This document shows positions 14,475 through 55,852 of a DNA stretch of 64,000 bases, piece after piece; positions within the stretch are counted from its first letter, which is position 1; each line of letters opens with the position of its first letter. A model generated the notes under the pieces. It was not told where the DNA came from. It did no database searches and saw only the letters and a program-made list of their open reading frames with translations. The stretch spans positions 34,113 through 98,112 of the IMG/VR virus record IMGVR_UViG_3300023109_000011, one strand, 5' to 3'. Source of the DNA: a virus. The position numbers were made by a program, and so were the translations under genes.

Positions 14475-14514
14475 ACGGTTCACTCTCCCCAGATTGGCGG
14501 TTTAAATTATTCAA

Positions 14515-38400: not shown

Positions 38401-40099
38401 TCTTCCAGTTCATGTAAGAGAAGCCCTGTACATAACAACCAGAACCTACTAGAATCGCATTGTTATTTTCATAACCTGGAAGTGCTTCAATAACCGTGGC
38501 ATACTGACCAGATGTAGAAGTAACCGAACAATCATCCGGCAACATCAAGTTACCCTTGGTGTAATATGTTCCTGGCCCTGCAGAAATATGAACTGAGTTG
38601 TTTAAAGCATTTCGATCAAATGATCCACCAGCCTTTTCTAAACAAAGCTCAAACGCTCGTTCCATACTTTGAACTGGCTGTAACATAGTTCCTGGGTTGT
38701 CATCATTACCTGATGCAGCATCAACGTGAACTTTAAGAGCCTGTGCAGTACTCTTCGATACTTCGTCAAATAATTGACTGTAAGAAATTTGTTCTGTTTG
38801 ACCTGTCTTTTCGTTCTTAATAGCAAAGTAGCTATCTTGATCAAGAGGTGGCTCAAACTTATCATTGAGATCCATGTCAAAGTCGACAAGAGTAGAATCC
38901 TTAACGATACCATTGTCGAACGTTGACTTAGTAACATCACCACTGTCGAACGTTGATCTTGTTTGACTAAAGCCATCAGCACTTGAACTCGTGATGGTCA
39001 TGTTCTGAGCTACTACATTATCCATCGTTCCTGTAAAGGATGAATTAGTAATTTCAGAATTCTGAATTGTACCTTGGTCAATTGTAGTATTGGTAAAGAC
39101 GTTGTTATTGCCGGTACCATCAGAGAAGTCTGAGTTAATGATTTCAACATTATCAAGATCAGACTGAGTAATTGTAACGTTGTTTGCTGTTGAATCTTCA
39201 ATTGCGCCATCTGTAAACGTTGAATTAGCAATTTCTAAATTATCAGCAGTGCTATCGGTGATTGTAGAATCATCAATAGTAGAATTTGTAAGTACTACAT
39301 TATTACCAGTACCGTTATTAAATTCAGAATCAGTTATAACAACGTTGCTTGCAACCGAATCTTCAATTTCACCGTTCGTAAAGACAGAAGTATCAATGGT
39401 AGATCTGGTAAGTACTACGTTGTTGCCGGTTCCGTCATTAAACTGAGAATCAGTAATAACTACGTTATTTGCGGTAGAGTCGTTTAACTCAGAATTTGTA
39501 AGTACTACATTGTTACCGGTAGAGTCAAAGATCTCTCCATCAGTAAACTCGGAATTTGTTATTACAATATTGTTAGCAGTGGAATCTTCAATCGACCCAT
39601 CATTAAATTCAGAATTTGTTATTACAACATTGTTTGCTGTACTATCATTAAGTTCTGAATTCGTGAGTACAACATTATTACCGGTTGAATCATTAATCTC
39701 GCCGTCGTTGAACTCAGACTGAGTAATGATTACGTTGTTTGCTGTAGAGTCGTTAATCTCACCGATATTAAATTCGGATGAGGTAATGATTAAGTTATTA
39801 GCATCCGAGTTCGTAATGACAGTATCGTCAATCGTCCCTCGTTCAAAGTTAGTATCTTCGATGTCAGAATTGTCGATAATGACTCGATCAATGCGCAGGT
39901 CGTGGATGAACGCGCCGGAAATGTCTCCGCCGGTAATCGTGATCCGATCAAATACCTCGTACTGAATGGCCTGTACGAGTTCTTTACGAGTGATGTTTGA
40001 TGTGCCATCATCACCTTGTACCAGATTGACAATAACAAATAGATCTTCTGATCTAGTATTATCACCGGTAATCGGAGGTAATTCTGAAATCTTCGCCAT
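29402..40099 (-). CDS. Giant modular virion protein with beta-helix and 'HTFVSA' modules (3565 aa)
   Basis: Residues 1-55 form a head (MAKISELPPITGDNTRSEDL). Residues about 60-400 repeat 'STANNVVITNSEFNDG'-like units of about 20 residues, probably a parallel beta-helix. Residues about 455-590 (VHVDAASGNDDNPGT...YYTKGNL...GCYVQGFSY) resemble a pectate-lyase-like beta-helix. The rest mixes two module families: 11 copies, plus one degenerate, of a helical unit around 'CxRDxGYxIDAxSxDIxYGGN', and seven copies of a beta unit running 'YTPTNATYDPNTG...GDxVxFxPESIxFxC...HPFYRKP...TTITMNVGTGG...HTFVSA'. The C-terminus is unique and basic (SSVRKLARRASNSRASL). No S74 tail is present. A perfect late box lies just upstream. 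It is probably a very long fibre or tail-associated protein of marine T4-like type; polysaccharide binding or cleavage is possible but not shown. Confidence 0.9.
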   Translation of the reverse strand: MAKISELPPITGDNTRSEDLFVIVNLVQGDDGTSNITRKELVQAIQYEVFDRITITGGDISGAFIHDLRIDRVIIDNSDIEDTNFERGTIDDTVITNSDANNLIITSSEFNIGEINDSTANNVIITQSEFNDGEINDSTGNNVVLTNSELNDSTANNVVITNSEFNDGSIEDSTANNIVITNSEFTDGEIFDSTGNNVVLTNSELNDSTANNVVITDSQFNDGTGNNVVLTRSTIDTSVFTNGEIEDSVASNVVITDSEFNNGTGNNVVLTNSTIDDSTITDSTADNLEIANSTFTDGAIEDSTANNVTITQSDLDNVEIINSDFSDGTGNNNVFTNTTIDQGTIQNSEITNSSFTGTMDNVVAQNMTITSSSADGFSQTRSTFDSGDVTKSTFDNGIVKDSTLVDFDMDLNDKFEPPLDQDSYFAIKNEKTGQTEQISYSQLFDEVSKSTAQALKVHVDAASGNDDNPGTMLQPVQSMERAFELCLEKAGGSFDRNALNNSVHISAGPGTYYTKGNLMLPDDCSVTSTSGQYATVIEALPGYENNNAILVGSGCYVQGFSYMNWKIDNFDFPEGGFAVAYRPGAKLLRSPYLRDSTQLSNFVRSDVEPPLNPYNTKGTLADLGREFTLEVGMTGQNANPALSLWQEGDEVTFSSGAVGYLSWDDSMDAAQGIDRDVDQNRKIRVRNLKNNRGFAVGDTVQCESGGTGTVASIGIDDFPNRLVGRGGGCVLADRRVLDPDSLYTYVLCFGFTPRTQNGIGYVARDGAGVNGIGSLSIFVRIAFYALNGGQMTLNNSGTQFGDISMRAKGTTRFFAPKSTSAANIFGNTAFADTIEANEPLIIDDMVDFITANTASGGLGYKGYDADKCERDSKIILDGLGYDIALDSNYWGRLAGISYRSPISYVVPGEQLEETLGANEYMQARVQDLFEGDPAIVARANTSMQELYNVLQYGEENINPITWVPTSVEQTAARELLQDNRTFIQTELTNWIDNNDQFYSYDSVACRRDTTDYIMPAVKNDMLLDTNYNAVTAGNAYYMASASKVIGEQRNETIGAYRFLKDRTNEILDANSYISSARVDGAFDEIITQLRANGATFTPTGVDYDHITGVMIMTIGTHNLEPGDKILFKPESILLACEGDGSIGQIAHPRALGGAGRPDPCYNTPCEITDVGATTITINAGVATVDKAHTFVSALPNAISVLGAEITFSDDAGILEARRDSRKLLQANREFMQDSVLNYIDTNYFHYDNIACRRDVTDYILPAVQRDMVTGSNYNAIQAGIAYRQKTGESTILNELPQTVAAIEDLQFNTRQEITDNVGVEFGAQFTPSNATYDPNTGIFVATVGTHSLEPGDYVWFADNGITMSCDMGSGATNHTSPAAHHPFYRKPCLVTEVDATTITMNVGTGGTGLFPHTFVSSVANAISEVTSVGRNAESTQADLSFRQLVDIVNNTGKTYTPTGVTYDPVTGMMISTIGDHDLQPGQEIVLADSCITFTCPDAGGNPVSITHPRPTDPVYRKPIKITATSSTTFTCYIGPAGTDKVHTFVSATADCVKEFGYSGTYTPQNATYDPNTGVFVASIGKHNVQVGDYVEIKPESVVFSCDNGNGPEDHASPEQHHPFYKKPVLVTAVTTTSITMNVGAGGGYTGVHTFVSADVGAIIADPLVWTDPSSYLNYYTPTTATYDPATGVSVVTIPDHDLAIGDRIEFTPYSFTYTCSLDSNATEHQYPRVGDGNYKTAMEITNVAGNNITVNVGTGSGGTHTFVSVANDAVIKVTTNTAGQLAREQLQANRNMIQTEIMEYLDTQYFVFDGDKCSRDTGFIVDAARRSVATGSNYPAIYMGLGYRIGTVGADKVVNDQLTETVGAINYLKSEVSEELTGTALTRSNDAFDEIIDILSNGSGNADTIVWGTNAVDVAHANARVALQTNKTFIQAETVAHIADTYPNLTYDTAKCLRDTGYMIDAISWDIQHGSNAGAVNFARLYFENAMAVLPEDQVVPTVRTWEYIAEVCYSVIRAIAITPTTGNVQTQDVSGGDLGIILGNKGRDLVTVVTKTIEADTLDWLPSYVEPTIEAGFETAVARMDGKTENLQTDVIEHIINVFNGLPYNKAKCFRDIGHIIDSVSKDIEYGGNASTIESAAFYFSRDDETSGDYEQLRSVNVLPLEVKGQMRDTAEEYPTANVSGLRTLINVLPEIQRVPTRLAFERLADVAEKVVTETAITPSSANVPAQDTSGTAAPAATGTAVHDLIQAVAALVDDKTADYIPKATNPTVDPNRTVARKQIQMNKDFIAEDVVEYLRERYYTFDGEKCYRDMAILINAVKRDVLTDSNFNAVFNGLAYRIGTKLADNVITEQLTETVSAIEYTRDAAVAAVTDPTAKTKTLNSFNELIDIMTNGETAADNIVFGPSSSRGLNGINAREQLKNNKAFMQAEITAYLADNYPSYVYDVAKCERDVGYLTDCVIFDTYHSGNSAVRGNAKLYFENAVSVLPVDQQAKTAETFIHIAEVAKYIVQDQDVDGLGLKSSSNSATQNRDSGSAGLAVGNEVERLFSVVANAISNNSLESMPALEEPNSASNAYVDEFKTAFTELEAVIPSVQDGLYAHLAEYFEILPYSEDKCRRDTKYILDGISHDIQYGGNAATLGNAKLYFDNAVNTLPLEQREASKFAFTHMSELVEKIVQRQEIPLRPLDRFGVSTVAYDPVSGEMVTTTLAPHTLSLGDYIVIEKEGITFECNNPAVEISHPRVTDPVYRKPLRVSAVTATTFTVNVEPAGGYTQAHSFVSAKANAIIKVSNPYRQELGNVAGNPMIATRAKALGMIITNVVETGSYATFPTRVDPLQTWQSPTVIAGKEAVEDAVPALADNVLTYLTAVQNGLGFPGAKCRRDIGYLIDAVSHDVQYGGNFASRQSAGIYFENGVSVLPADTRKQTADIYDYLGLVMSQVVQENDVSQFTTYTPTNATYDPASGVFTATIGSNNFKVGDLVWFAPESIVFSCNMGSGNQNHRSPESHHPYYNRGCPITAVEGTTITMNVGTGGTGQVAHTFVTADADSLANGPYQQFLGTPGTATEAAAAQSLIGIVEDVIRANSTDALPGLEGPDLSWVNSELIGAAEQIEDNVDHLANDLVHFINTEFNALDYNRAKCFRDVGYLLDAFSYDLNYGGNIASRWNADFYFWNNEYRVPENQREATAKSYRQLGVICKDIVLGKYAGQVAKGELGTQVEADKVEKLANVFYLTQINKDTKYLPAKQEPDYAYAGDKFTGAQFIIGENKINLAADTVRYVSAEYGFINLPLTRRDASNLLQAIANDFKYEDGTEVNSPSYTGSIAVGAQNAIRTFTSSFFDYKGQHAFPVFNSTTRGLKYQGSLQGPVGSGILASVTGQKPNHAYIVATNMAVSHYEGDIYYWDPTINDWRYDGPNNTELLDSFVGAWERMRDYMISNLSPDAAHSAMIAGLFNDCLIDNVVRPETLIFGSLVESIAHQFNGASAGVNRNALPLNFRNLGQPISAIASVLNEDGGRIRWSGADELNNQYFARGLRINGRTGRIEGRPFTSSVRKLARRASNSRASL
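34785..36810 (-). repeat. Five consecutive 'YTPTxATYDP...HTFVSA' modules
   Basis: Five of seven copies in the 3565-residue protein lie here, the second after a helical module and the last four nearly tandem; the other two copies are at about 31745-32030 and 30945-31240. Each copy is about 95-105 residues and contains two conserved elements, 'HPFYRKPxxIT' and 'TITMNVGTGG'. Confidence 0.85.
38890..39900 (-). repeat. About 20-residue beta-helix-like repeats in the 3565-aa protein
   Basis: Units such as 'STANNVVITNSEFNDG' and 'STGNNVVLTNSELND' recur through residues about 60-400. The regular Asn-Asn-Val-hydrophobic-Thr-(Asn/Asp)-Ser spacing suggests a parallel beta-helix stalk. Confidence 0.8.
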
Positions 40100-41552: not shown

Positions 41553-44500
41553 CTAGGATAACGCTATGGCCCTGTAATCGTTTAATGTGGGAGCGTTGTG
41601 GATGTTAGGTGATAGCATATCAATGCGGATGGCAAACTTTCTAAATCCAGAGAAAGTACCAGCATTGCTAGTATATTGTAGTAGTCCATTAACATCCTTA
41701 TCCGACTCAGCTACCTTATACTTGTACTCTTTAAAATCACCGATGTTAATATTTGAAGAGAATAAATTTACACCTTCAAACATTTCTAATTCTACCCATT
41801 CCATCTCACCAAAGCTCTGACCATCGTAAACATTCTGAGGCTTAATGTAAACCTTAATGTCTGTACCGTTAGGGCGATATGCGCTGATAGTTACTTCCAT
41901 ATCTTCGGCGTCAAGATCTTCAGCCAGTTCTACGCGGTTTGAAATAAACACCGCATCAGGATCAGATGCATCATTATTGATGTTATATTGATATGCGAAT
42001 AGTTTAGCAATTTCGATATCAACCACAGGTGTAGATGTTACGTTACCGCTGTTTTCTAAGTTGACTGTAAAGTTGAATGCTTTAGTTTCATTAACATCGT
42101 TAGATTTACTATATACCATCACACCCTTTTCTGGGAAGTGAATGTTACCATTAAACTTTAAGCCTTTAGTGTAAGTACTGCTTACGTCTGCTGGTGAAAC
42201 GAATGTTCCATCAAGAGTTGTAGTTGCAACAGTATCTTCTGTTTTCTGAATCATTGCTTGAACATAGCTTAGATTAATATCATCAACCGTTGTAATGTCA
42301 GCAGTCTTGCCACTGTCGAGTCCAACAATCTTAGTTGTTGCATCTGAAGGATTACTTGCTTGGAATACTCGTGATGGCTTAGCTGAACTGTGCTCGAGGT
42401 TCATAGTAAATGGTCTTAGTACATTATAGTAACTTATGTTACCTACCACCACTGCTGCACAAGTTCCTCCACTTACCGCAAACGATGTTGGCTTATTCAC
42501 AGTAAGTTGCGATGCGGAATCGACACTGATAACTTTAAAGATATCTTTACGAGTAGCACCAGCATCATTTATTAGAATAAAGTCATTCTCGTTAAACGTA
42601 TCATCGAGATCTGTACCGGTAATGATTGCTGTATTTATTGCCATACTTACAGTTGCAGATGTTGAGCCTGCAAAAGCCTTTTGCTGGTAAACAAGCTCAC
42701 CGGTATTGAATCGGCCAGTAACGTCGCTGATAGTCAAGAACTCACAATCATTTGCTGTCATTGTAATTGAACCAGCAGACTCGTTAAAGTTATGTCGATA
42801 AAGCTTGAACTTTAAATCTTCGTCTTGGTATGACTTCCAAGCACTGTTGTTTGTTGAACTAAATAGAACACCATCACCCCAGTCCTGTACAATAGCAGTT
42901 CCTTGAGTCGCTCCAGGCGTAAGATCATTTTGTCCGATTTGAGATATGAACAGCAAGTAGTTAGGATCGTTAGCATCTGCTTGTAATACTAATGCATATT
43001 CTTTTTCTACATCCAATCTTACAGGAGCTTCAAAAGTAAATGTAGTTGGAACCGAAGCGTCATCAGATGCAGCCCCTACTAAATCAGAAGGTAGTTTACG
43101 AGACTTCGAGAATGGAATGATTTCGTTTGTTGGGAAACCATTAACAACTTCTCGTATCTGACAGGTGATACCATTCTCTGTACTAACTCGCTTGAAGAAT
43201 ACATCAACCTGAGATAAGAATACTGTATTGCTTCCAGCACCCATACCTTTCTTAACAAAGAATGTTTGAGCAAGTGGATCACGACCTTCTGGTCTTCGAA
43301 CAACATTTCGAACAGTGGTTGTCTTAGCTACATCAGCATCTGGCTTACGAGTTGTTTGAGTAAGAGATGTACGCTCCATTGAGAAGTTATAAGCACGGTA
43401 TGTAACAAAACCTGTAGATGTTGCAGCTGAATTAATATTGTCGTAAGAATCAACATCCACAATATCTAATACGCGATCACCGACGAAGAATGTTTCACCA
43501 GGGATTGTAAAGACTGCACGTAATACACCATTTGCATCAGTAGATACTGCATCACCGTATTCGCCTAATCGCTCAACTAGGTTAACATCGTCAACAGCAC
43601 TTCCTGGGATTACATTAGCATTAACGTCTGTCTTGTCGAAGAAGAAATAATGTTGAGTGTTTGGACGAAGACCTGACATATAGACCTTAACATCCCTGCC
43701 AGCAATAAATGGCTTGAACTGTACATTACTAACAAAGTCTCCAACAGGAACTGAAACGCTAGTATTCTCAGGCATTGAGATATCGATATCACGCTGAGTG
43801 GTAACTTCTCGGAATGTGCCGGGATTGTATCCATACCGACGGTTACGATAACGTGGGTGGTGCCATCCGCCATGCCACCATCTGTTCCACCACCAATCAC
43901 CACCCCAATATTCGCCAGGAACATATTCGTAACTGGTATCAGTAAGTGGTAGTACTTCTTGAATGTTATCAATGAGTTCGCTAAATGCTCCAGTCATATC
44001 AACATCAATTGTCACTGGATTGACCGTAGTGTCATAGTTCACGTCGTAAGGAGGTGAAATGTAACCGTTACCTTTGTACTGGTAGAAGTTGTTTGCACAA
44101 GTTCTAAAACCAGTTGCTGAAGGTTGGTCTATGAAAGCGACATTTGAATCTCGACCTAGTGTACCCACCTTAGCACTTGTGGCTGAAGGGAATAAGGAAG
44201 CGCCGGAGCTTGTCTTATATTTAAGATCAATAGGGAATTGCTTGACTGAAGGAGTAAGTACCTTACGACCATGCGGAATCGCTGCACTAAATAAAGGATC
44301 TTTAATGTTTGAAAGAGAAATATCATTGAATGGATCTACAATAAATCCATTTTTAAATCTGTTAAGTCCATTCTCATCGAGTACTCGCATATTTTGTGTA
44401 TCAGATTCAAGCTGATTCAATGAGATGTAATAAGACATATTGTCGATTCTCTTTTCGAGAGAATGCATGTCTTTCATAGTAAAGTTTTTAACACCTGTAC

Positions 44501-47018
44501 CCTTACAAGTAATTGCATGTGCTCGTTTATTTTGAGCATCAGCTGCTCGAGCTGATAGAGCTGGAAAGCCAGGGACTCGAACTTCAGCAACGGCAAACTC
44601 TTCTCGACTTACTCGTGGTGGTGTTGGGTTATCTTGCTCTTTACCTTTAAGAAGTTTAATTTCACCATAAGAATCAACAACAATACTGTCGATACGTGCT
44701 AAGTAATATTCGATGTCAGTTGTAATTGCTTGATCGACTGCAGGGATGAGAGGTGTACCGTGACCATCAGCACCAAAGGTAGTAACTGCACCACCTACGG
44801 TTCCAGCAATAATAGGAGCGGTTGGCCCGTCGTTTGCACCATAGTTTGCATTAGCTGCTTTATCTGCGACTGGTCTAAAGTCAAAGCACTCTCGTAAACT
44901 ATATGAATCACCTGCATCAGCTACGTAAGCTGGAATATCAGATGGTTGAATTGTATTGGGATAACTGTTAATTGTAAAGTAGTAATCACCAGATGAACTA
45001 ATTACTTTAAAGCACTTTAATTGAATAATCAATCGCTGGTTACCAGGACGTGGTCGACCTTGGATGTATTCAATATATGAAATATCGTAGTGAGTATCTT
45101 TTTGGTTATTATGCAGCTTAAAGCTCTTGGTGTAATCAGTTCCTAATGTGTCTTCGATACTAATAATTTCAAATACGTCTGGGAAACCAAGGCTATATTT
45201 GTTTTGGCCTAGGGTATGATCAACACGTACAAACGGTTCTTCTACTACCTTACCATAAGGCTCTACACCATCTGTGGAGCCAATCAAACGAACGTTATAG
45301 TAAACCTCTACTGAACTCCAAGGACCTCCAGATGGATCCAGCTCAATCACCAGCTCACTGTTATTAGTCTGTGTGGTAGTTGAAGTGATTGTTGGATAAG
45401 CACCACCTGCCGCAACAACCAATACGTCGTTATTATCACATACAAAGTCTTCACCTGGGCCTGCTGTAATCGTGATGACGTTTGTTTGAGCAGTTGCAGA
45501 TACCTGTTGTCGTACTGGAATCAAAGTATCTGAGGTCGAGAATAAGCTTACCAAACCAGTGCGGAAAATGAGTGGCTTAAGTCCTACATTTCGAATTACA
45601 TTTCCTACTGAAACAAATCCGTTTCCATCTGAAAGCTTAGCAATATCTTGTACTGCACCTACCATTACTACGTTTGTGATATAGGCTTTTGTAGGTGTAA
45701 TGTTAATCGCTTGACAAGAACCGATAGACGAACCACCAGAATCTTGAATATCAACCGTTGCTCGATTTAAATCAATTTTACCACTAAAACCAGTAACATC
45801 AAGATAGTAACCATAAGCAGTTGATACCGCTTGGTTGGCTGCAGTTTCTGTTTCAGTTATTTGATCAATAGGGAAGGAGCGTTCTGCATTGTTCTCAACT
45901 CGATAACCTTTAACATAAGCAACACCGGTTCCTAACACTGCATGTGCTGATGCTGGCGTACCTGGTGCTGATCCTGAAGGAACAAGGTCATCTGAAATTA
46001 CGTCGAAGTTATCAAGTACATAGTTACCTGATTCTTCATAAGTCCGGCGGGCCATCTCTTCACCGAGAACGTTATATTGAGAAACGTCTCGAATTGTTAC
46101 TGCATTACCATTTTGGTATCGAATCAAAGAGAAAAATTCGACATCACTATTACCTGTTTCGCTATTAACAACGATAAGTTCTGGTGTAAGCTTAAGTCGA
46201 TCAGCACCAGGAGCGTTTTCGTTAGCGGATCCATTTGCATTGTCGAAAAGTTGTGCATCTTCAAGAGCATTAACATTTCGCTCAGTAATCTTATAACCTA
46301 CTGAAACACCGTCTGGTACTCGATTGTATTTAGATACAACAAGTGTTTGCTCACCCGCAAATATAAAGTGACCTTTCTGGAAAATAACACCGGGTGCTGA
46401 TTGAATACCAAATGAATCACCAACCGCATCATCCGATGGTAAAGAAATTACAGAAAGAGTAGGTGGTGTGACATCAGATGGAGCGAATACTTCGTCAGTA
46501 GTACCACGCTTATATCTAAATAAGGTAATAGTAAGTGTATCACCTTTGTTGAATTTTTCTTGGCCTGGAATGGTGTTTAAGTAATTAATGAAGAATGTTT
46601 TCTTGTTAACCGGATCAGCGAGGAAACCGTTTGCTGCCTGGACAATGGCTGCTCGCAGACCTGCGGCATTACTTAAAACGTAAACATAATCGATTTCTAC
46701 ATCAATACCACCAATAGTTTCAATCTCAACTTTAGGGATATATGCTAAAGGATTAATGTCAGTACCACCAAGGGCATCATTTATTTTAACGAATTGCAGG
46801 CTGTCAAGGTTTGTAAAGTTACAACCTTTAATAACGCTTCCTTCTTTGAAGATGTTATCTCCAAATTGTTCAACCTGATTTTGAAGCATTGACTGAAGTT
46901 GAATCAGTTCGCGCGCTTGAACAGCAAATCCTGGCTTAAACAATACGCGATAGTATTGATTCTCGACGTCAAAATCGTCAAAGTATGGTGACTTATTAAG
47001 ATCTGTGTTTATAGGCAT
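41553..47018 (-). CDS. Large DUF4815-like baseplate/fibre structural protein (1821 aa)
   Basis: The N-terminal 60-odd residues (YFDDFDVENQYYRVLFKPGF, AVQARELIQLQSMLQNQVEQ, FGDNIFKEGSVIKG) match the DUF4815 signature of large tail structural proteins that often sit beside gp8 in marine T4-like phages. The centre carries 'LRPNTQHYFFFDKTDVNANV', a recurrent phage structural motif, and later 'RRPEGRDPLAQTFFVKKGMG' with 'FLSQVDVFFKRV'. A striking Trp/His/Arg-rich insert covers residues 1037-1064. No S74 tail is present. It follows gp8 by 15 bases. By place and family it is probably a baseplate-periphery or fibre-base protein that may replace T4 gp9-gp12 (inference). Confidence 0.88.
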   Translation of the reverse strand: MPINTDLNKSPYFDDFDVENQYYRVLFKPGFAVQARELIQLQSMLQNQVEQFGDNIFKEGSVIKGCNFTNLDSLQFVKINDALGGTDINPLAYIPKVEIETIGGIDVEIDYVYVLSNAAGLRAAIVQAANGFLADPVNKKTFFINYLNTIPGQEKFNKGDTLTITLFRYKRGTTDEVFAPSDVTPPTLSVISLPSDDAVGDSFGIQSAPGVIFQKGHFIFAGEQTLVVSKYNRVPDGVSVGYKITERNVNALEDAQLFDNANGSANENAPGADRLKLTPELIVVNSETGNSDVEFFSLIRYQNGNAVTIRDVSQYNVLGEEMARRTYEESGNYVLDNFDVISDDLVPSGSAPGTPASAHAVLGTGVAYVKGYRVENNAERSFPIDQITETETAANQAVSTAYGYYLDVTGFSGKIDLNRATVDIQDSGGSSIGSCQAINITPTKAYITNVVMVGAVQDIAKLSDGNGFVSVGNVIRNVGLKPLIFRTGLVSLFSTSDTLIPVRQQVSATAQTNVITITAGPGEDFVCDNNDVLVVAAGGAYPTITSTTTQTNNSELVIELDPSGGPWSSVEVYYNVRLIGSTDGVEPYGKVVEEPFVRVDHTLGQNKYSLGFPDVFEIISIEDTLGTDYTKSFKLHNNQKDTHYDISYIEYIQGRPRPGNQRLIIQLKCFKVISSSGDYYFTINSYPNTIQPSDIPAYVADAGDSYSLRECFDFRPVADKAANANYGANDGPTAPIIAGTVGGAVTTFGADGHGTPLIPAVDQAITTDIEYYLARIDSIVVDSYGEIKLLKGKEQDNPTPPRVSREEFAVAEVRVPGFPALSARAADAQNKRAHAITCKGTGVKNFTMKDMHSLEKRIDNMSYYISLNQLESDTQNMRVLDENGLNRFKNGFIVDPFNDISLSNIKDPLFSAAIPHGRKVLTPSVKQFPIDLKYKTSSGASLFPSATSAKVGTLGRDSNVAFIDQPSATGFRTCANNFYQYKGNGYISPPYDVNYDTTVNPVTIDVDMTGAFSELIDNIQEVLPLTDTSYEYVPGEYWGGDWWWNRWWHGGWHHPRYRNRRYGYNPGTFREVTTQRDIDISMPENTSVSVPVGDFVSNVQFKPFIAGRDVKVYMSGLRPNTQHYFFFDKTDVNANVIPGSAVDDVNLVERLGEYGDAVSTDANGVLRAVFTIPGETFFVGDRVLDIVDVDSYDNINSAATSTGFVTYRAYNFSMERTSLTQTTRKPDADVAKTTTVRNVVRRPEGRDPLAQTFFVKKGMGAGSNTVFLSQVDVFFKRVSTENGITCQIREVVNGFPTNEIIPFSKSRKLPSDLVGAASDDASVPTTFTFEAPVRLDVEKEYALVLQADANDPNYLLFISQIGQNDLTPGATQGTAIVQDWGDGVLFSSTNNSAWKSYQDEDLKFKLYRHNFNESAGSITMTANDCEFLTISDVTGRFNTGELVYQQKAFAGSTSATVSMAINTAIITGTDLDDTFNENDFILINDAGATRKDIFKVISVDSASQLTVNKPTSFAVSGGTCAAVVVGNISYYNVLRPFTMNLEHSSAKPSRVFQASNPSDATTKIVGLDSGKTADITTVDDINLSYVQAMIQKTEDTVATTTLDGTFVSPADVSSTYTKGLKFNGNIHFPEKGVMVYSKSNDVNETKAFNFTVNLENSGNVTSTPVVDIEIAKLFAYQYNINNDASDPDAVFISNRVELAEDLDAEDMEVTISAYRPNGTDIKVYIKPQNVYDGQSFGEMEWVELEMFEGVNLFSSNINIGDFKEYKYKVAESDKDVNGLLQYTSNAGTFSGFRKFAIRIDMLSPNIHNAPTLNDYRAIALS

Positions 47019-47033
47019 ATCTAATTAAATTCC

Positions 47034-48662
47034 TTAAAGTTCCAGTACAAACTTAAATTCTTCTCTAGAAAGGTCCGTTCTCGCAAGTGGGAAAAAGTTT
47101 TCCATGAAGTACACTTCGCCTGAGCGTTGTTGGTAGTTCGACATCACGATGTTGTCTTCTACTGGACTATTTATAGTAATTGTTTGACCTGTTATATTTC
47201 TAAGCGGTAAAGTAAGATCTAATGAAGTGTCACCGTCTCCTGTTGCTGGATTGTTAGGATAAGGTCCCATGTATTCAGCTAAATAGAAGGTATTATTATC
47301 TTCATCAACCTCGTGTACTACTCCTGAGAATGTTACTATATTACCACTACTTAGTTGTGTTAACACTGTATTTGCAGATACCTTATCTATATCATCAGTT
47401 GTAATTGCAATACGGTTATCAAAAATAACTGGAGTGGTATCATGAAAAGTTGGTTCTTTTACAATTCCTACCCCTGTGTAAGTATTGCTATCACCAATTT
47501 GTGTATTATCATCTGCTGTAATATAAGCATAAAGCATAAAGTGCTTACATTTAAATTCGTCAATAAAGTTATATCCGTGGCCGCCATCAGGTGTTAGCCT
47601 AGCTCGTAAAATACAACGAACTTCATCACTTCCAGATTGCCCTGGTCTAAAGTCAACTCGAGGATCTGTAACAGTAATTGTAATATTATGATAGCCGGTG
47701 CCTGGCTCAATTAATTGAATGCTTCGAATTTGGCTATCGACAATATTAGGTATTCCAATAGCACCTGTACCATCACCTTCAATCTTAACTTCTGGTAAGA
47801 TTTTCCAAGAAGCGTTTTGAGTAACACCAGCTGCAACTGGATTTGCTGCACCTGTAATTAACTCACCACCAACTCGTATCTGAGCATTACCTGTATTCTT
47901 ATTATAGAAGTAATAAGTGATTTTAAATATTCTTGTTGTTACACCATCAGGATTCGTTGTTATTAGATATTGCCCAGTATAATAATTTGTTGTTGGACTT
48001 ACTACAGTTGAAGGATCAACAATAATAATACCAGTCGAATATGGACTACCTACTAAAGCACCACGCTCTTCTTTATATCCAAAGTTATCATTAGGATTAA
48101 CAACTAATATGTCAGAGACTTGGCTACCTGTACTCGTAGGAGGATCGATAACATAATCGTCAACTAATGGAATATAACCAACAGCGTTGTATGCTTCGAA
48201 TTGAAGGTCGGTAAGCTTATACATAAACTTCCAAACATACCCATCAGCTGTTTCATATATTTGATTAGGAGTTGTTTCAGCCCAGTTAGGTGGGTTTGAA
48301 ACCTCAGTTCGATCGTTATTGTTTAAGCATTTATAAACTCGATAGTCTCCAGTGTCATTATCGTTTGGACCGACAACGGCATAGAACTTAACACCGGTAA
48401 GATCAACTTGGTCGTCATACTCTTCGAATACTAATCCTTTCTGCCAAGGATAATACTTAATCATGTAATGCATATCGTTAGACGATATTTTCTTAGCAAA
48501 CAGTGTTTTCTCTAAAAATTCATTTTTTGAAAATAAAGAATCCGAAGGATCGAACGGGCCGATTGACGACACAAAAAGATAGTAATCTTCGCTTGCTCTT
48601 GATTGTTCAAGGAAGAGTCTATTCAAGTCACTTTTTAGATTGGTGCTTAGAATCTCTGGCAT
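47034..48662 (-). CDS. 8: Baseplate wedge protein gp8-like (542 aa)
   Basis: T4 gp8 is a dimeric baseplate wedge component of 334 residues; this version has 542. Two segments support the call. Residues 108-150 (YRVYKCLNNN...YETADGYVWKFMYKL) match the T4 'YRCL...GDGYVWEYLFEI' region. The end (SGEVYFMENFFPLARTDLSR, EEFKFVLEL; 514-542) matches the T4 C-terminus 'SGEMIYMENRPPI.......INILFTF'. Insertions in the middle (around residues 175-420) explain the extra length. It acts in assembling the baseplate wedge with gp7, gp10 and gp6 in T4; no gp10 is recognised here. A late-type box 32 bases upstream of the ATG suggests it starts its own transcript. The start is ATG at 48662. Confidence 0.85.
   Translation of the reverse strand: MPEILSTNLKSDLNRLFLEQSRASEDYYLFVSSIGPFDPSDSLFSKNEFLEKTLFAKKISSNDMHYMIKYYPWQKGLVFEEYDDQVDLTGVKFYAVVGPNDNDTGDYRVYKCLNNNDRTEVSNPPNWAETTPNQIYETADGYVWKFMYKLTDLQFEAYNAVGYIPLVDDYVIDPPTSTGSQVSDILVVNPNDNFGYKEERGALVGSPYSTGIIIVDPSTVVSPTTNYYTGQYLITTNPDGVTTRIFKITYYFYNKNTGNAQIRVGGELITGAANPVAAGVTQNASWKILPEVKIEGDGTGAIGIPNIVDSQIRSIQLIEPGTGYHNITITVTDPRVDFRPGQSGSDEVRCILRARLTPDGGHGYNFIDEFKCKHFMLYAYITADDNTQIGDSNTYTGVGIVKEPTFHDTTPVIFDNRIAITTDDIDKVSANTVLTQLSSGNIVTFSGVVHEVDEDNNTFYLAEYMGPYPNNPATGDGDTSLDLTLPLRNITGQTITINSPVEDNIVMSNYQQRSGEVYFMENFFPLARTDLSREEFKFVLEL
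47169..47176 (-). promoter_or_regulatory. Possible internal late promoter box (TATAAATA) within gp8
   Basis: A perfect TATAAATA on the minus strand lies inside the gp8 coding region, about 150 bases before the ATG of the 1821-residue gene, which has no box in its own 15-base spacer. Chance occurrence in AT-rich coding DNA is possible. Confidence 0.35.
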
Positions 48663-48709: not shown

Positions 48710-51151
48710 CTATACCTCAATTGTCTTCTTTCTTCTAGGAAATACATTTCCACTCGCAGGCCTTTCTTTATGTCGAGGTGCAAATGCTGCGCCATGATTC
48801 ATGTACTTTCCCGGTGAATTACGAACAGCCCACGGAACATTAATCATTTGAGTAGTATTCCCGTGTAAATCAGTAATGTCACTGCCGCCGTTTTTAAAAT
48901 CGTTTGCGTAAATGCTATAAACATCTGAGCTGGCCCCATCTAGGTACTGGACAACTTTTTCACCGGCCGACCCTTGTGTAGTATCGGTTTTTGTGTTATA
49001 TGCAGTTATGATCCAATTGGTGCTTGAGAAGTCAACGCCCCGTACAATATTTTTGCTATCATTTTGTATTTGCTCTTTAAGTTGAGCTATGCTTGGATAT
49101 GTTCCGCGCTTCAAGTAAAAGTCATCTATCATTAAGGCTGCAGCCCCAGCAGCCCTAGGTCCTGCACAACTCGTTCCACCAAATCCTGACCATGTATAAC
49201 CATTTTGATCAGTAGTTTGCATTGAGCCAACTGGGTAACTACTAAATGTGTTAGACCCCGGAGCTGCAATGTCTATGCCCGGTCCTCTATCACTAAAACC
49301 ATCTAAATAAGGATACAACCGGGATGTAGTCGCCGCTGCAACTGTGATCTCGTTTGAATAGCATCCTCTAAAAGAGCGGTTAGGATAAAATTGTTCATAA
49401 CCAGAACCGAGCGGGCCTTCTCCTTCATTAACAGCAGTTAAATTAGCTAAAGTATATCGGCTAGATGAAATACCTATTGATATGTAACTTTCCCCTGCAG
49501 CTACACTTAACTGGTTATGCCAATGCTGATGTTCTGGACCTACCTCACCTGCTATTGCATAATTGCCAGCACTTTGAAAATAATATATTCCGCCGACAGT
49601 ATCGTAGTTATCTAAGATAGTGTCAAATGCTGTATCTCGAAGGTCACGGTTATATGGTATCGTCCACTTAGCTGTACTGTCAGAAGGATCTACTATTAAA
49701 CGAGGAGCGATATTAGCATTTGCAAAAGGTCTTAAATCACCTTCCCAGCTAGTTGAACTCCACGAAGTGGCTACTATCGCACCTATCATTCCAGAGTGTA
49801 ATGTACACCTATACTTAAGAAGAGTTGAGGTGTTTGCAGGCACTGTAATAGTAACCGTAGCAGTTCCTTGACCTGTAATCCACGAGTCAGTCCTTACTTC
49901 TAAGGTCGAGTGGTCAATAATTTCGATAGGATGAGAACCTACACTACTTGCGTCTAAAACAACCGTGTCACCGGCTTTTAAAACTAGCGTGGGATTATCT
50001 TGACTAGCTAAAACGCTGCCAGTTGGTCGGTAAGTACCTCGGTCATATCCTTCAAAACGATAAGCACTTGATCCGTTAGCAGTCACTTTATAGTTAAATG
50101 TTGCTAGTTGTGGATCACCTCGGTTAATTGTTATAGGCGAGTCAATGGGATTTCCCAGCGAATTGTTTGGCCCATCAGGATAATACGTTATAGCTTTAAC
50201 TTTATCTACTGGGATACCACCATTCATCCCATCAGTTGTATAAATCCAAGCTCCAGTTACAACAGTTGCATTACGTATACCAGTGTTAGGATTAACAGGT
50301 TTACTTTGATGCCACGCTAATACTGCATTCATTGCTTCAGCAACACCGTCGCCCAAATATACGACTCTTAAAGATGCGTTAAAAGCCCAACCAGAGGCTT
50401 TACCACCTGTAGCACTTAATACACCAATCGCGTGAGCGCTAAAATATTCAGATCCGTTATCAACTTGGTTAAAGCTCACTAAGTTAGGTTCGTAGTCTTC
50501 CCAGTTCATTGGAACAAACCTTGATGTACCCGAGTTAGCTCCCAATCCGCAAAAGTCTACATGTGGACTATTGTGCCAGCTATCATAAGAGGTTGTTGGT
50601 GATCCTGCTTCAACAGCAACAATATCTACATATTCACCTGCGTAGTTTTGTATTACTTGACCGTCGAAAAAAGGGTCTTCAGTCGTCGAATTAATCGGTA
50701 AGCTTCGTGAGACTCCTTCTGCATTAGAGTGATATCCGTAACCAGTCGAGCCGGAAAGGATAAAATTTGATGTTTCATTTGCTGTAGGGGTTGCTCCGCC
50801 AGTATACAATAATGCCATTGGAGAATAATCTAAACCATCCGCAACCCCGAGACCAGCGTTATCCCAATCATTAGCAACTAATCTTTGTGGAGTAGTTCCA
50901 TCTCCTCTTTCATAATTAGGTGACCCGATTGTATTATAAGAAGCGTCTTCAACTTGTAATTCTGGTACTACATCTCGGACCTTTTCACTTGCTTTAAGCG
51001 TAGCAACCTCTTCGTCTGTTAGCATCATTGAAATCAAACTATCTAATAAACTTAGATTAGATTTGACCTGCATTCCTGCAGCTTCATTTGCTAGAAACTC
51101 TGGTTCGTTAGTTCCTTTTACGAGAACAACTGTATGCTTATGCTTTTCCAT
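48710..51151 (-). CDS. Subtilisin-like (S8) virion protein with inserted cupredoxin-like domain (813 aa)
   Basis: Residues 1-70 resemble an I9-type propeptide (MMLTDEEVATLKASEKVRDV). The S8 core has His240 (EYFSAHAIGVLSATGG), the oxyanion Asn530 (FQSAGNYA) and Ser661 in GFGGTSCAGPRAAGAAAL. At the usual Asp position the strand reads VDIVAVEAGSP, so Glu181 takes the place of Asp; Asp176 is nearby. Between His240 and Asn530 lies a cupredoxin-like domain (about residues 350-462), with His407 (SHPIEI), Cys449, His452 and Met455 (YRCTLHSGMIGA) as potential type-1 copper ligands. Subtilase-domain virion proteins occur in T4-like cyanophages, but their role is not settled. It may process virion proteins or host surface proteins, or be an inactive scaffold. 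It lies one base after the fibre-like gene with the other cupredoxin-like domain. Confidence 0.88.
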   Translation of the reverse strand: MEKHKHTVVLVKGTNEPEFLANEAAGMQVKSNLSLLDSLISMMLTDEEVATLKASEKVRDVVPELQVEDASYNTIGSPNYERGDGTTPQRLVANDWDNAGLGVADGLDYSPMALLYTGGATPTANETSNFILSGSTGYGYHSNAEGVSRSLPINSTTEDPFFDGQVIQNYAGEYVDIVAVEAGSPTTSYDSWHNSPHVDFCGLGANSGTSRFVPMNWEDYEPNLVSFNQVDNGSEYFSAHAIGVLSATGGKASGWAFNASLRVVYLGDGVAEAMNAVLAWHQSKPVNPNTGIRNATVVTGAWIYTTDGMNGGIPVDKVKAITYYPDGPNNSLGNPIDSPITINRGDPQLATFNYKVTANGSSAYRFEGYDRGTYRPTGSVLASQDNPTLVLKAGDTVVLDASSVGSHPIEIIDHSTLEVRTDSWITGQGTATVTITVPANTSTLLKYRCTLHSGMIGAIVATSWSSTSWEGDLRPFANANIAPRLIVDPSDSTAKWTIPYNRDLRDTAFDTILDNYDTVGGIYYFQSAGNYAIAGEVGPEHQHWHNQLSVAAGESYISIGISSSRYTLANLTAVNEGEGPLGSGYEQFYPNRSFRGCYSNEITVAAATTSRLYPYLDGFSDRGPGIDIAAPGSNTFSSYPVGSMQTTDQNGYTWSGFGGTSCAGPRAAGAAALMIDDFYLKRGTYPSIAQLKEQIQNDSKNIVRGVDFSSTNWIITAYNTKTDTTQGSAGEKVVQYLDGASSDVYSIYANDFKNGGSDITDLHGNTTQMINVPWAVRNSPGKYMNHGAAFAPRHKERPASGNVFPRRKKTIEV

Positions 51152-51152
51152 A

Positions 51153-52922
51153 TTAGCTCTCTAATACTAACCCTGTTAAGGATACGGTAATTGTTGCAGT
51201 TCCTGAGTCTATGTTTGTAACAGTAACCGGAACAGTTGTTTCTGAATCATCAACATATCCGTAAATTGCCGGAGTTACTTTAAACTCAGTTGTTCCTGAT
51301 TGAGTCGCAATAAACTCGGCAATAACGCCTCCACCTTCTGGTGGATCTTCACCTTGAGTTCGAGAAGCATCGGCTGTTCGAGATGCTGTATCACTATAGA
51401 TACGAACCCAGCAAGGTGCATCTACTTGGCATGTATACAAGGCATACGAAATACCTAAGTTTGCGAATGATAAGTTAGTACTCGATCCAGCGTTGAGGCT
51501 AGTTGCTTGTTCGGATTCGGTAGCTCGAGATAGTGAACCACCTCCGCCGCCGCCGCTGTTACCGGCCGCAGGTTCAATTACAATAGTACCAACCATACTC
51601 GAGTGTGCTTGACATATGTACCTATAGTTACCAGAAATACCTGCTGGAATTTTCCAGAATAAAGCGCCACCTATTCCTGCGTTTGCAGCTGAACCTTCGT
51701 AATAGACTCCTAAATCAAGTGCAACTAGTCCTTCATTATAATCTGCACCTGCCGCAGTTTGAATTACGAATGGGTGTACAGCACCACCTGCACCAGTTAA
51801 ATCAAATCCAACTGTCGTTCCTGCTTTTACATAAATTGTTGGGTTATCAGCTGTACCATATTGGTCAAAACGATATGAAGAAGAACCATTATTAGTAACC
51901 TTTAATACAGTGGTAGCATTTAAGAAACTGTTTTCAAATAATGCTTTATCTGAAACACCGGCAGGCTGTTCACTAATGTTTAAATAAGTTGGAGTGAACG
52001 TTACGTTTCTCCAAGTCCCATCACTACCGAAGTATTTTAAAATATCATCAGATTGTGGATTTGTAATTGTGGTATCAGTAATATCAGCCATAGCAGTTGA
52101 ACCACCGCCACCTGATAATGCGGCCCATGCAAAATCTGAACCATCCCACTGTAATACTTGGTTTGCACTTGCACTACTTACGTTTAGGTGAGCACTTACT
52201 GCGTTATCATTATATGCACCACCACCACTTTGTGAAATCCAAGAATAGTCAGTACCGTTCCAACTTAATATATCGTTTTCGCTAGCGCCACTTACATTGA
52301 TATGAGCATCAACATCGCTATCAGCATAAGATCCACCGCCACCAGAGATATCATCGAATACCAAACCATCAGCATTACTGTTAACAACCAATGCTTGGCC
52401 GGCCGTGCCAAACGAACTTGGTGTATCAGATAAACCGATTATAGTGCTTGAACCACCGCCACCACTTTGAGCTACCCAAGTATATGTACCATCTGCATTT
52501 GATTTAAGTACATAATCAACGGTTTCACTATTAGTAATATTGGTTGAGTAAACGATGTTGTTTAAAGGATCGGAATAGTTTGTTACTGCACCAGCTGAAG
52601 TGTCTGTTAACACTTTACGCCATTCACCGTGAGCGTAATACAATGCGCCTGTATCGTGAGCATGCCCAATAGATCCGTGATAAGTACTTGGGCTTAGAGC
52701 AAGTAATGATTCTTCTGTATCGTGCAAGAATGAAATTTTATGAGGTTTTCCAACAAGATCGAATGCTCCATTTTGATCGAAAAGAACTTCTGCATTTGTA
52801 GAACTACCTAATGCGAAATATAATTCCGTGAAGTTATCGTTTGCTTTATCGAATGCATTCCTTAACGGATCACCTGTTCCGTCGTTCGCTGATGCACCGA
52901 TATTAATTATCTGCTTGGCCAT
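51153..52922 (-). CDS. Fibre-like virion protein with cupredoxin-like domain (589 aa)
   Basis: The N-terminus KQIINIGASANDGTGDPLRN and AFDKANDNFTELY is the standard start of many marine phage fibre or baseplate proteins ('I..G...NDGTGD.LR.AF.K.N.NF.ELY'). Repeated 'ILxWNGTDYSWISQSGGG' units with Gly-rich linkers follow. Residues about 340-455 form a plastocyanin-like domain: 'SSYRFDQYG', 'NPTIYVKAGTTVGFDL', His383 (VHPFVIQT) and Cys437, His440, Met443 in YRYICQAHSSMVGTIVIEP. The C-x2-H-x2-M spacing matches amicyanin-type blue-copper sites. The C-terminal 110 residues are beta-rich. A late-type box lies 33 bases upstream, so this gene probably begins a transcript. Structural role probable; copper binding is inferred from the ligands. 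Confidence 0.85.
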   Translation of the reverse strand: MAKQIINIGASANDGTGDPLRNAFDKANDNFTELYFALGSSTNAEVLFDQNGAFDLVGKPHKISFLHDTEESLLALSPSTYHGSIGHAHDTGALYYAHGEWRKVLTDTSAGAVTNYSDPLNNIVYSTNITNSETVDYVLKSNADGTYTWVAQSGGGGSSTIIGLSDTPSSFGTAGQALVVNSNADGLVFDDISGGGGSYADSDVDAHINVSGASENDILSWNGTDYSWISQSGGGAYNDNAVSAHLNVSSASANQVLQWDGSDFAWAALSGGGGSTAMADITDTTITNPQSDDILKYFGSDGTWRNVTFTPTYLNISEQPAGVSDKALFENSFLNATTVLKVTNNGSSSYRFDQYGTADNPTIYVKAGTTVGFDLTGAGGAVHPFVIQTAAGADYNEGLVALDLGVYYEGSAANAGIGGALFWKIPAGISGNYRYICQAHSSMVGTIVIEPAAGNSGGGGGGSLSRATESEQATSLNAGSSTNLSFANLGISYALYTCQVDAPCWVRIYSDTASRTADASRTQGEDPPEGGGVIAEFIATQSGTTEFKVTPAIYGYVDDSETTVPVTVTNIDSGTATITVSLTGLVLES

Positions 52923-52954: not shown

Positions 52955-52962
52955 TATTTATT
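52955..52962 (-). promoter_or_regulatory. Late promoter-like box (AATAAATA) before the 589-aa gene
   Basis: The minus strand reads GTTAATAAATATTTAG across the end of the gp7-like gene. The box is 33 bases before the ATG of the fibre-like cupredoxin protein. Confidence 0.6.
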
Positions 52963-55852
52963 AACTAGTTGGTTCGTGGTCAACTGTAATGAAAGAACTA
53001 TCAACAGTAAAGTTCGTTACCGATGCTTCAAGGCTGTCAGTATTCGCTGTGTCTAATGGCGAACCTCTTCCGTCGTCATTGAATCGTCGGAAGAATCGAG
53101 TTCTTGCATTATTCGGTACTTCAACCTTATAAACAAAGTCACCGAATAGTTTTGTTCCTGCTAAGTGTACATTTTCTTTAAGTGTACTTTCATACATACT
53201 TAATGGCAGTGTTGACTTGATTAAGTAAGAATAGTCTTGATAGAAATCGCTATCTTGAATACGTACACCAGCATTAAAGTATTTAAACTGCGTAACATAT
53301 TCGTATAACTCAGGACTCAAATCATAAAAGCCCTGTTGCTTCATGCTAGGTGCAACAATATTATTCCATCTATTTAATTGCTCAACCGTACCTCCGCCAG
53401 CAACGATCCGCTCATAAATTGTAACATCATCAGGAGTAATTGTACCATCTTGATCTGCATCTAAATAAGGAAATCCGTCTGAACTTATAGTTGCTCCCCA
53501 GTTCGCGAAGTCTTCATCCCAGAGATACTGAGTTTGATATGGAATCCATAGAACATCTTCTTGACCTGCATACCAAGTCTGACTCTTTAAGTTAGGTGCA
53601 ACAATTTCATTCCATCTTTGAGTAACTGCTTCAGCAGCTGTACCAGAAGCAAGAAGCTGGAATTGTATTAATCCAGGACCATTTAGCGGAAATCCTTGCT
53701 TAGTCATATCATATATTGCGTACCCATCAGAAGCAGTGCTTTCCATCCATGCTGCCCATTGAGGCGCTAGATCTGGGAATATGTTTACGGGATTATTACC
53801 AAAGATAATTTGAAATCCACCAATATTCCATACATTACCAATAGGAAGAATTGTTGTCTCACCAACAATAGCAGCTTGCGTTTGTTCTACAAAATCCGAT
53901 GTAGGTAAAATAGGATTTTCTATCGTAATTTGTTGTTGTTCGTATCCATTTAGATGTGAAGTAAAATCTGCCCAGTAACCTTCTGTAAAACCTTGTGTGT
54001 TTTGTTCAATAATACCGTAAGCCTTACGGTTACCGTCTTCATCTTGTAATTCACCTACAGTATTTGCGACATATCCAAAGCCGGAGTTAATAATCTCGAC
54101 TTTACTAATTTGTCCAATAGCAAACTCTGTTTCAGTTTCTACGATTGCGTTATCACCATAGTCTTTGCTTTCATAATCTGTTTGAACTGCATCAACACTG
54201 AAACGATCTCCGTTTGCTTTTTGAACATCATTAACACCATCAAACCCGTAATAAGCAAATGGTGTAATACTAATTGTTCCCTTCGTAGTATCAATTGCAT
54301 TTACTTCAGCACTCTTTCCAGTAGAGTTTTCCGTAATCAATTCACCAATACTAAATACACCTGCATCAGCCGGTGTTTCAAACCGTATTATTTGTCCTTT
54401 ACGTCCAAGATTCTTAATCACCTGATCTTGAGCCCGAGCAAAAACCTGTGTAGTATAATTCTCACCTGAAGCAATATTACGGAATAGTTCGATACGACCA
54501 ATTGTAATTGGTGTTAAGTCAAATGCATCTTCAAGCGGAGTAGTAATCGTTACCGGACTTGCAGTACCTGACATTGGAGTAACTGCCCCATAATCAGCAG
54601 CATCGAGAGTTGTTGTAAGATAAGGCTGGATTGGATCGGTAATAACTGATATTGAAACTGTGTTTTTAATGTCAGCAATAACACTCGTACCTAAACCGTC
54701 GTCAGCATATTGTGTTCCTGGCGAGCTGACATTGTAAGGTGTAACTAAGTCAATATCAATTGGATTGCTTGGGTCCCTGTCTATTGCAAATATGTTTCGA
54801 GTATTTTCGAATGCAATAGGGAAACCACCGCGAATAGTTACGATGTTCGTTACATATATTCCTACGGCGTTTTCTGTTTGACCTAATACTATACCTTCGT
54901 TGTTCTGAGTATCTCTTACTCGTTCGTATAATACAAATTCTAAGCCGGGATTATCGAGAATAAATGTTTGTTGTGAAACTAAAAGTTTCGTATTTTCAAC
55001 ACTGTATCCATAACCGCCATAAATGAGTTCGTAACTAATCTCTCCTGAAGTACTATCTGAAAGACCTTTAACAACTGCTTTACCACCGCGACCTTGATCT
55101 GATACAACATTTAAAATATCACCAACGCGATTGTTTGTTGCCCGATCTTTATTAGTGTCAACTTCAAAAGCATTTAATGATCCATTGACTCGACCAAAGT
55201 CAACAAGCTCGCCATCGATACTTGAAAGAACGTCATCATCCTTTTGGAAGTTACCTTGAACTGCATCAATGTAAATAATAGGAGTGCGCGTACCTTCGAT
55301 TAAAATAAAGTTAATGCGGCTTACAGCTGCCTTAGCACCGGAAACTGATCCTTGAATATTTTTTGAAATTAAATCTGCGTAGGTATATTTTTTACCGAGC
55401 GACGATACAAAGGAATTATTATTAGAATATAGCTGAAGATAAACACCACGCTTCCATTTTGAATTCGATATCTTTAACATCTTTTCTGCAGGATACGTAA
55501 TATCAATCTCGTACTCATTATAGAATATCGAGAAGAACGTTTCAATACCTGCAGGTGTACCTTTTCGACGATAAAGATCTAAAATATTTTTTACTAGAAA
55601 TGGTACACTGTTTTCTTTGAACGGTAAATCGGCTAGGAACTTTTTGTGGAAAAATACGAGTAATTCTTTAACAGTAGAGTCTACATCTTTATAATCAAAC
55701 AACCTTCGATTAACGTGGTGACTTTGATTTGTAGCTTCCTCTAGAAACTTATAATAATATCTAGTCAGCGCAACGAGTTCTGGACCATCTTGTTTATAGA
55801 TATCCGGAAATTGTTGATCGATGAAAAACGATATATTCTTTTCTATTTCCAT
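52961..55852 (-). CDS. 7: Baseplate wedge protein gp7-like (963 aa)
   Basis: Residues 22-48 (DGPELVALTRYYYKFLEEAT) and 80-125 (KNILDLYRRKGTPAGIETFF, SIFYNEYEIDITYPAE) match the C-terminal domain of T4 gp7, in which 'STKGIEASYKFLF.VLYNEEVEIE' is recognisable. T4 gp7 is 1032 residues; here that module is at the N-terminus and the rest is different. Near the C-terminus two related segments of about 55-60 residues ('...AVTQRWNEIVAPNLKSQTWY' and '...QLNRWNNIVAPSMKQQGFY') are repeated, and the second holds an EF-hand or dockerin-like loop (DADQDGTITPDD, residues 798-809). It follows gp6 by 15 bases, which fits T4 order. It is probably a central baseplate wedge subunit. Confidence 0.85.
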   Translation of the reverse strand: MEIEKNISFFIDQQFPDIYKQDGPELVALTRYYYKFLEEATNQSHHVNRRLFDYKDVDSTVKELLVFFHKKFLADLPFKENSVPFLVKNILDLYRRKGTPAGIETFFSIFYNEYEIDITYPAEKMLKISNSKWKRGVYLQLYSNNNSFVSSLGKKYTYADLISKNIQGSVSGAKAAVSRINFILIEGTRTPIIYIDAVQGNFQKDDDVLSSIDGELVDFGRVNGSLNAFEVDTNKDRATNNRVGDILNVVSDQGRGGKAVVKGLSDSTSGEISYELIYGGYGYSVENTKLLVSQQTFILDNPGLEFVLYERVRDTQNNEGIVLGQTENAVGIYVTNIVTIRGGFPIAFENTRNIFAIDRDPSNPIDIDLVTPYNVSSPGTQYADDGLGTSVIADIKNTVSISVITDPIQPYLTTTLDAADYGAVTPMSGTASPVTITTPLEDAFDLTPITIGRIELFRNIASGENYTTQVFARAQDQVIKNLGRKGQIIRFETPADAGVFSIGELITENSTGKSAEVNAIDTTKGTISITPFAYYGFDGVNDVQKANGDRFSVDAVQTDYESKDYGDNAIVETETEFAIGQISKVEIINSGFGYVANTVGELQDEDGNRKAYGIIEQNTQGFTEGYWADFTSHLNGYEQQQITIENPILPTSDFVEQTQAAIVGETTILPIGNVWNIGGFQIIFGNNPVNIFPDLAPQWAAWMESTASDGYAIYDMTKQGFPLNGPGLIQFQLLASGTAAEAVTQRWNEIVAPNLKSQTWYAGQEDVLWIPYQTQYLWDEDFANWGATISSDGFPYLDADQDGTITPDDVTIYERIVAGGGTVEQLNRWNNIVAPSMKQQGFYDLSPELYEYVTQFKYFNAGVRIQDSDFYQDYSYLIKSTLPLSMYESTLKENVHLAGTKLFGDFVYKVEVPNNARTRFFRRFNDDGRGSPLDTANTDSLEASVTNFTVDSSFITVDHEPTS

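Follow-up and report, generated by a model that had tools for sequence, protein, structure and literature searches.

In the characterised small blue copper proteins, the type-1 ligand set serves electron transfer. Amicyanin and plastocyanin (PF00127, TIGR02657) are periplasmic or lumenal electron carriers of the cupredoxin fold, in which the last three copper ligands are located in a loop ahead of the final strand. Cyanophages carry a soluble plastocyanin, PetE, as an auxiliary gene; this free protein of 107 aa has a C-x2-H-x4-M loop, and a role in photosynthetic electron flow is assumed for it (PMC3037559, PMC2984593). Metal ions in a phage tail appendage have been described for the iron sites of T4 gp37, and a role in host contact was proposed for them under the Ferrojan Horse idea (PMC11705849). 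In the comparative genomics of cyanophages plastocyanin is discussed only as PetE (PMC3037559), and copper is not mentioned in a review of the structural genes of cyanophages, where gp10 is among those given as missing (PMC2984593). The literature searched, which was partial, with most subscription papers and preprints outside it, contained no description of a phage virion or tail bearing a cupredoxin, blue copper or plastocyanin-like domain. Blue copper proteins, cyanophage PetE and the gp37 iron sites are thus known, and the new element, as far as could be checked, is a cupredoxin fold and site on the virion.

The window analysed here is a stretch of viral DNA of 64 kb in total length, and the domain in question is part of the protein P0001 encoded in it. 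The P0001 domain is predicted to share with amicyanin and plastocyanin the fold and the position of the last three ligands, and it has the same ligand-loop length as amicyanin (His...Cys-x2-His-x2-Met). It differs from both in being part of a large virion protein instead of an electron carrier, in its first ligand His, which is found in the motif HPF and not in HNV, and in falling below the curated cut-offs of PF00127 and TIGR02657. PetE has the same fold and ligands and co-occurs with the virion domain in some phages, e.g. S-SM1; however, the virion domain has a C-x2-H-x2-M loop and is embedded within baseplate or fibre proteins. In T4 gp37 iron is bound on HxH repeats in a fibre trimer, whereas the site considered here is of copper type and lies within a folded virion domain. 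The cyanophage connectors of phrog_677 (T4-GC 398, gp9/gp10-like) show the same succession of a gp9/10-type N-terminus and a cupredoxin domain; in contrast to these, P0001 has an extra C-terminal region and belongs to a phage with a backbone closest to the Sinorhizobium phiM12 group. An origin of the virion domain from cyanophage PetE was considered and rejected, as the loop lengths differ and similarity is found only at the profile level.

Gene context and baseplate placement of P0001

The genes and segments relevant for the placement of P0001 are the following:

52961..55852, minus strand: gp7-like baseplate wedge protein, immediate upstream neighbour of P0001 (phrog_17744, E 4.9e-90)
51153..52922, minus strand: P0001 ORF, 589 aa with ATG start, gp9/gp10-type baseplate appendage protein with a predicted cupredoxin domain
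52800..52922, minus strand: N-terminal T4 gp9/gp10-like segment of P0001, residues 1-41 (PF07880 and gp10 structure match)
51156..51581, minus strand: C-terminal region of P0001 with Gly linker and phage domain, residues 448-589 (phrog_15343, phrog_9627)
48710..51151, minus strand: P0002, subtilisin-like (S8) protein of 813 aa with an inserted cupredoxin domain (PF00082, phrog_15006)
47034..48662, minus strand: gp8-like baseplate wedge protein, downstream neighbour (phrog_438, E 1.1e-47)

Over its whole length P0001 resembles phrog_677, annotated as "baseplate wedge tail fiber protein connector" (E 4.7e-42). The Pfam family PF07880 (T4_gp9_10_N) matches only residues 3-41 and just meets its cut-off (E 1.6e-5, 25.5 bits against 25), and the solved structure of T4 gp10 (2fl8/5hx2) matches residues 3-40 with an E-value of 5.7e-4. 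Genes for gp6-, gp7- and gp8-like baseplate proteins are located nearby. Those relatives of the window that are long enough to show it have retained the gene order gp7, P0001, next gene, gp8, the gene after P0001 being of S8 type in all four relatives tested, and a homologue in S-TIM5 carries the annotation virion structural protein. P0001 was assigned to the baseplate because of its gp9/10-type N-terminus and its gp6-, gp7- and gp8-like neighbours. Homology and gene order together show it to be a baseplate appendage protein and not a fibre in general; trimerization and docking on the wedge are inferred, and no virion proteomics is available for the window phage. A preliminary description made from the sequence alone had called P0001 a fibre-like virion protein, a term that can now be narrowed to a baseplate appendage of gp9/gp10 type, and had missed the N-terminal segment.

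Three very large ORFs were also observed near the tail genes, at positions 2520-14483 (3987 aa), 29402-40099 (3565 aa) and 41553-47018 (1821 aa), the last of which is VrlC-like (phrog_358).

The cupredoxin-type domains and their ligand set

Two domains of cupredoxin type were identified in the window, with the following positions:

51567..51929, minus strand: cupredoxin-type domain of P0001, residues 332-452 (AlphaFold2 model, Foldseek PDB matches, profile comparison with the PDB)
51774..51776, minus strand: His383 (HPF), predicted copper ligand 1 (conservation; hhalign alignment with the plastocyanin His)
51594..51614, minus strand: Cys437-x2-His440-x2-Met443, predicted copper ligands 2-4 (conservation; synonymous codon variation), with the codons of Cys437 at 51612-51614, His440 at 51603-51605 and Met443 at 51594-51596
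49760..50116, minus strand: second cupredoxin-type domain, P0002 residues 346-464, with His407, Cys449, His452 and Met455 (domain profile)

For the structure prediction with AlphaFold2, an alignment of 23 domain sequences from the window and from fetched contigs was used as input. The resulting model of the P0001 domain, which lies in the distal half of the protein, is nearly all beta and has a mean pLDDT of 91 and a pTM of 0.84. In a Foldseek search against the PDB, all 50 listed matches were copper proteins of cupredoxin fold with E-values from 1.5e-5 to 5.5e-4; these comprised the copper nitrite reductase 2dv6 (1.5e-5), rusticyanin, AcoP, plastocyanin, amicyanin, laccases and one cytochrome oxidase subunit. 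The likeness in fold is moderate, with TM-scores on the query between 0.35 and 0.57. Profile comparison of the domain family with the PDB returned chains of copper nitrite reductase, plastocyanin, rusticyanin and amicyanin, the best of them at 4e-7 to 1e-5. In these alignments the Cys, the second His and the Met are in register with the copper proteins, and the first His is in register with nitrite reductase 2vmj. A direct hhalign comparison with phage plastocyanin PetE gave an E-value of 3e-6 with all four ligands in register, the first His included. Both the model and the profile evidence thus predict a Greek-key beta-sandwich of the cupredoxin fold.

As a single sequence, P0001 remained below the cut-off of Pfam Copper-bind PF00127 (E 0.054, 14.4 bits against 21.2) and gave no match to the amicyanin equivalog TIGR02657, for which the homologue from S-SCSM2R reached 21.2 bits against a cut-off of 110.2. 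This phage has one virion-type gene which was labelled 'PetE' by the depositor.

In the model, the first His lies ahead of the strand formed by model residues 58-62, and the C-x2-H-x2-M motif between the last two strands. This topology and the alignment to known sites, but no measured distances, support the prediction of a single site shared by the four ligands. Among six-frame ORFs of at least 60 aa in the 64 kb of the window, C-x2-H-x2-M occurs only twice, in both cases within a domain of cupredoxin type, which speaks against a chance occurrence.

The second of these is the domain of P0002, which was recovered by the domain profile among the window ORFs with an E-value of 7.6e-30. P0002 meets the cut-off of PF00082 at residues 516-677 (E 9.9e-10, 38.6 bits against 21.8). 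In four S8 relatives (L010, L014, L021 and L022) the cupredoxin stretch is missing while the flanks align, and the P0002 domain is therefore an insertion in the S8 fold. This conclusion rests on sequence alignment, the model of residues 170-700 being useless (pLDDT 27, three near-identical sequences). The catalytic triad of P0002 is incomplete: His240 and Ser661 are kept, and Glu181 occupies the position of the catalytic Asp, which is kept in the relatives L010, L014 and L021 in the same gene position. The combination of S8 and cupredoxin was also found in other layouts, with a C-terminal cupredoxin in S-H9-1 and in the contig L037; in P-HM2 the cupredoxin domain adjoins a protease-like region.

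The complete set His-Cys-His-Met was found in 106 of 108 distinct full domains, which correspond to about 27 effective sequences at 70% identity. One exception is a divergent copy (L036) without any of the four ligands, the other a frameshifted contig. Proteins that retain the set are only 25-40% identical, and in 165 distinct sequences both synonymous codons are in use at every His and Cys ligand position. An internal comparison is offered by a baseplate protein of about 997 aa which is encoded directly downstream of the cyanophage gp9/10 gene and contains two cupredoxin modules in tandem (L056-L135; e.g. L078:3342-6332). Its first module has all four ligands in each of 76 homologues found by overall similarity; 72 of these fit the full pattern, and in the other four, which lack the Pro after the first His, the ligands were read directly. 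For the second module (n = 69), none of the ligands is present in 64 proteins, all four in two and Met alone in one, and two could not be aligned. The ligands are thus retained or lost together in a nearly all-or-none manner, which fits a metal site rather than a structural motif, and the two-module protein constitutes a natural control, or test pair, for the role of that site. The counts may be biased due to the fact that some loci were found with patterns containing the motif; the set obtained by overall similarity reduces this bias and does not remove it.

Taken together, it is very likely that the fold and site of type-1-copper type in P0001 are real and located on the virion, with copper binding and function being inferred. 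A search for a metal analysis, a spectrum or a structure of any member of the domain family yielded none.

Most claims of the preliminary description concerning this domain were confirmed. It had proposed a cupredoxin-like domain at residues of about 340-455, which holds with the bounds revised to 332-452; its numbering of His383, Cys437, His440 and Met443 is exact, and the amicyanin-type spacing C-x2-H-x2-M was borne out by the sequence and the profile alignments. Its span of 51596-51776 holds only in part, as the Met codon starts at 51596 and extends to 51594, so that the true span is 51594-51776. Neither of the two outcomes named there as refuting, a fold other than cupredoxin and freely varying ligands, was seen when checked against the model and the ligand counts (106/108, and 76/76 in the related domain). 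The homologous domain in the adjoining gene 48710-51151, a second copy in which all four ligands recur, had been missed, and the proposed copper or redox centre and the roles suggested for it remain inferred.

Possible roles of the conserved site

The explanation we favour, with moderate confidence and without direct evidence for copper binding, its timing or its function, is an exposed appendage module which is stabilised by copper and serves in contact with the host. Each domain would bind one copper ion; since the cytosol contains very little free copper, uptake would probably take place on or after leaving the cell. The bound copper would lock the ligand loops and stabilise the exposed module, and this module may take part in contact with the host surface, by analogy much as iron does in the tip of T4 gp37. 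A function in electron transfer would be possible and is not required. Against this view stand the moderate fold similarity, the single-sequence scores below the Pfam cut-offs and the absence of any metal analysis, spectrum or structure. In addition, phage virions are built in a reducing, copper-poor cytosol and nothing shows loading; a zinc or unmetalated site could yield similar conservation; and copies without the ligands demonstrate that the baseplate can use the fold in the absence of metal.

Among the rival readings, the one that survives best and remains possible is a plain beta-sandwich module for adhesion or spacing, in which the ligand residues hold zinc or persist unmetalated for folding. 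It is supported by the ligand-less versions of the fold in related virion proteins, by the lack of direct evidence of copper and by assembly in the cytosol, which favours a zinc or apo site. Against it, the near all-or-none retention of His-Cys-His-Met at only 25-40% identity fits a metal site, and Met as a kept ligand points to copper over zinc.

Ranked next is a copper Trojan horse, in which the copper-loaded domain would be a lure or ligand for copper-acquisition proteins of the host surface or for copper-protein partners. Tail iron sites and the Trojan horse idea have been published (PMC11705849), the domain is located on baseplate and fibre proteins, and its occurrence in annotated phages is almost restricted to marine cyanophages and their uncultivated relatives. 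However, a receptor is not known, and copper in a type-1 site is tightly bound and half buried. Moreover, a single shared host receptor is improbable because the backbone of the window phage is closest to alphaproteobacterial phages. We consider this reading unlikely.

Doubtful as well, and ranked below the lure, is a redox element, in which Cu(I)/Cu(II) cycling, or oxidation of a free Cys outside the cell, would make the baseplate alternate between a state inside the cell and one outside it or in contact with the host. The intact type-1 ligand set and the joint retention of its members are in favour of it. On the other hand, no redox partner was recognised nearby, there are no data on potential or conformational coupling, and cupredoxins change their shape very little on redox change. 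A chance match of the motif in an unrelated fibre domain, for which only the single-sequence Pfam matches under the cut-off could be cited, is all but excluded by the profile matches of 4e-7 to 1e-5 with ligands in register, the confident cupredoxin-like model and the hhalign match to PetE at 3e-6.

A bolder reading would be that the baseplates of T4-like marine phages bear type-1 centres which are loaded with copper and redox-active; each virion would have several of them, belonging to more than one kind, and they would take part in sensing or contacting the host and make the tail a redox-active device. We hold this to be improbable. Phage tails are known to carry metal sites with iron, and a site of blue-copper type on a virion has not been described in the literature searched. 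If copper on virions proved true, consequences would follow for host recognition, for the stability of virions in sunlit seawater and for viral copper cycling, and the annotation of hundreds of genes would be corrected.

Spread of the domain among phages

In tblastn searches with five different copies of the domain, matches were obtained in 216 to 338 records out of a collection of 50,697 phage records, almost all of them from phages of marine Synechococcus and Prochlorococcus. The others were a few single-cell marine viruses, one record labelled Actinomycetia and one Kyanoviridae record (C48C1). Enterobacterial T4-like phages, which are very numerous in the 50,697-record collection, gave zero matches. 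Genes with the domain in public phage records are mostly labelled "baseplate wedge tail fiber connector"; in the podovirus P-GSP1 it is found in a tail-fibre protein, and BFVD contains matches in cyanophage fibres and S8 proteins. At least 583 relatives were confirmed in one scan of IMG/VR. The domain is a portable module, carried by gp9/10-like connectors, tail fibres and S8 proteins of marine T4-like phages, and cyanobacterial podoviruses contribute at least one further case. It is a shared and conserved baseplate part in phages infecting the cyanobacteria that dominate the ocean; such phages can be cultured and their virions purified.

The backbone of the window phage is closest to alphaproteobacterial phages and not to cyanophages, its gp6- and VrlC-like proteins being nearest to those of the Sinorhizobium phages phiM12, phiM7 and phiN3. 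In phiM12, gp8 follows directly after gp7, with no genes of P0001 or P0002 type between them.

Apparent cellular homologues on contigs assigned to bacteria or archaea (Nonlabens, Euryarchaeota, Rickettsiales and others) were rejected, as those checked read as phage contigs; L137, L138 and L140-L143 have T4-like neighbours or a gp9/10 N-terminus. One of these, L138 (NZ_RMVE01000006.1, labelled Nonlabens xiamenensis), is a 188-kb contig with T4-like gp9/10-cupredoxin and VrlC-like genes and looks like a phage genome within a bacterial assembly. Fold matches in BFVD were also observed in giant viruses, namely 'beta-sandwich' proteins of Marseillevirus LCMAC201 and LCMAC202 and of Pithovirus LCPAC, and a 'blue type 1 copper protein' of Fadolivirus.

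Two short cytidylyltransferase-like ORFs, recognised by eye only, are located among structural genes at L158:15556-15969 and L159:11264-12025 (starts TCSAFDLLHAGHVQML and TGGFDPIHSGHIAYL). A tryptophan halogenase gene (PF04820, E 3e-101) was found on the same phage contig just beyond the window, at L159:15391-16878 (G000:C1 about 32591-34078).
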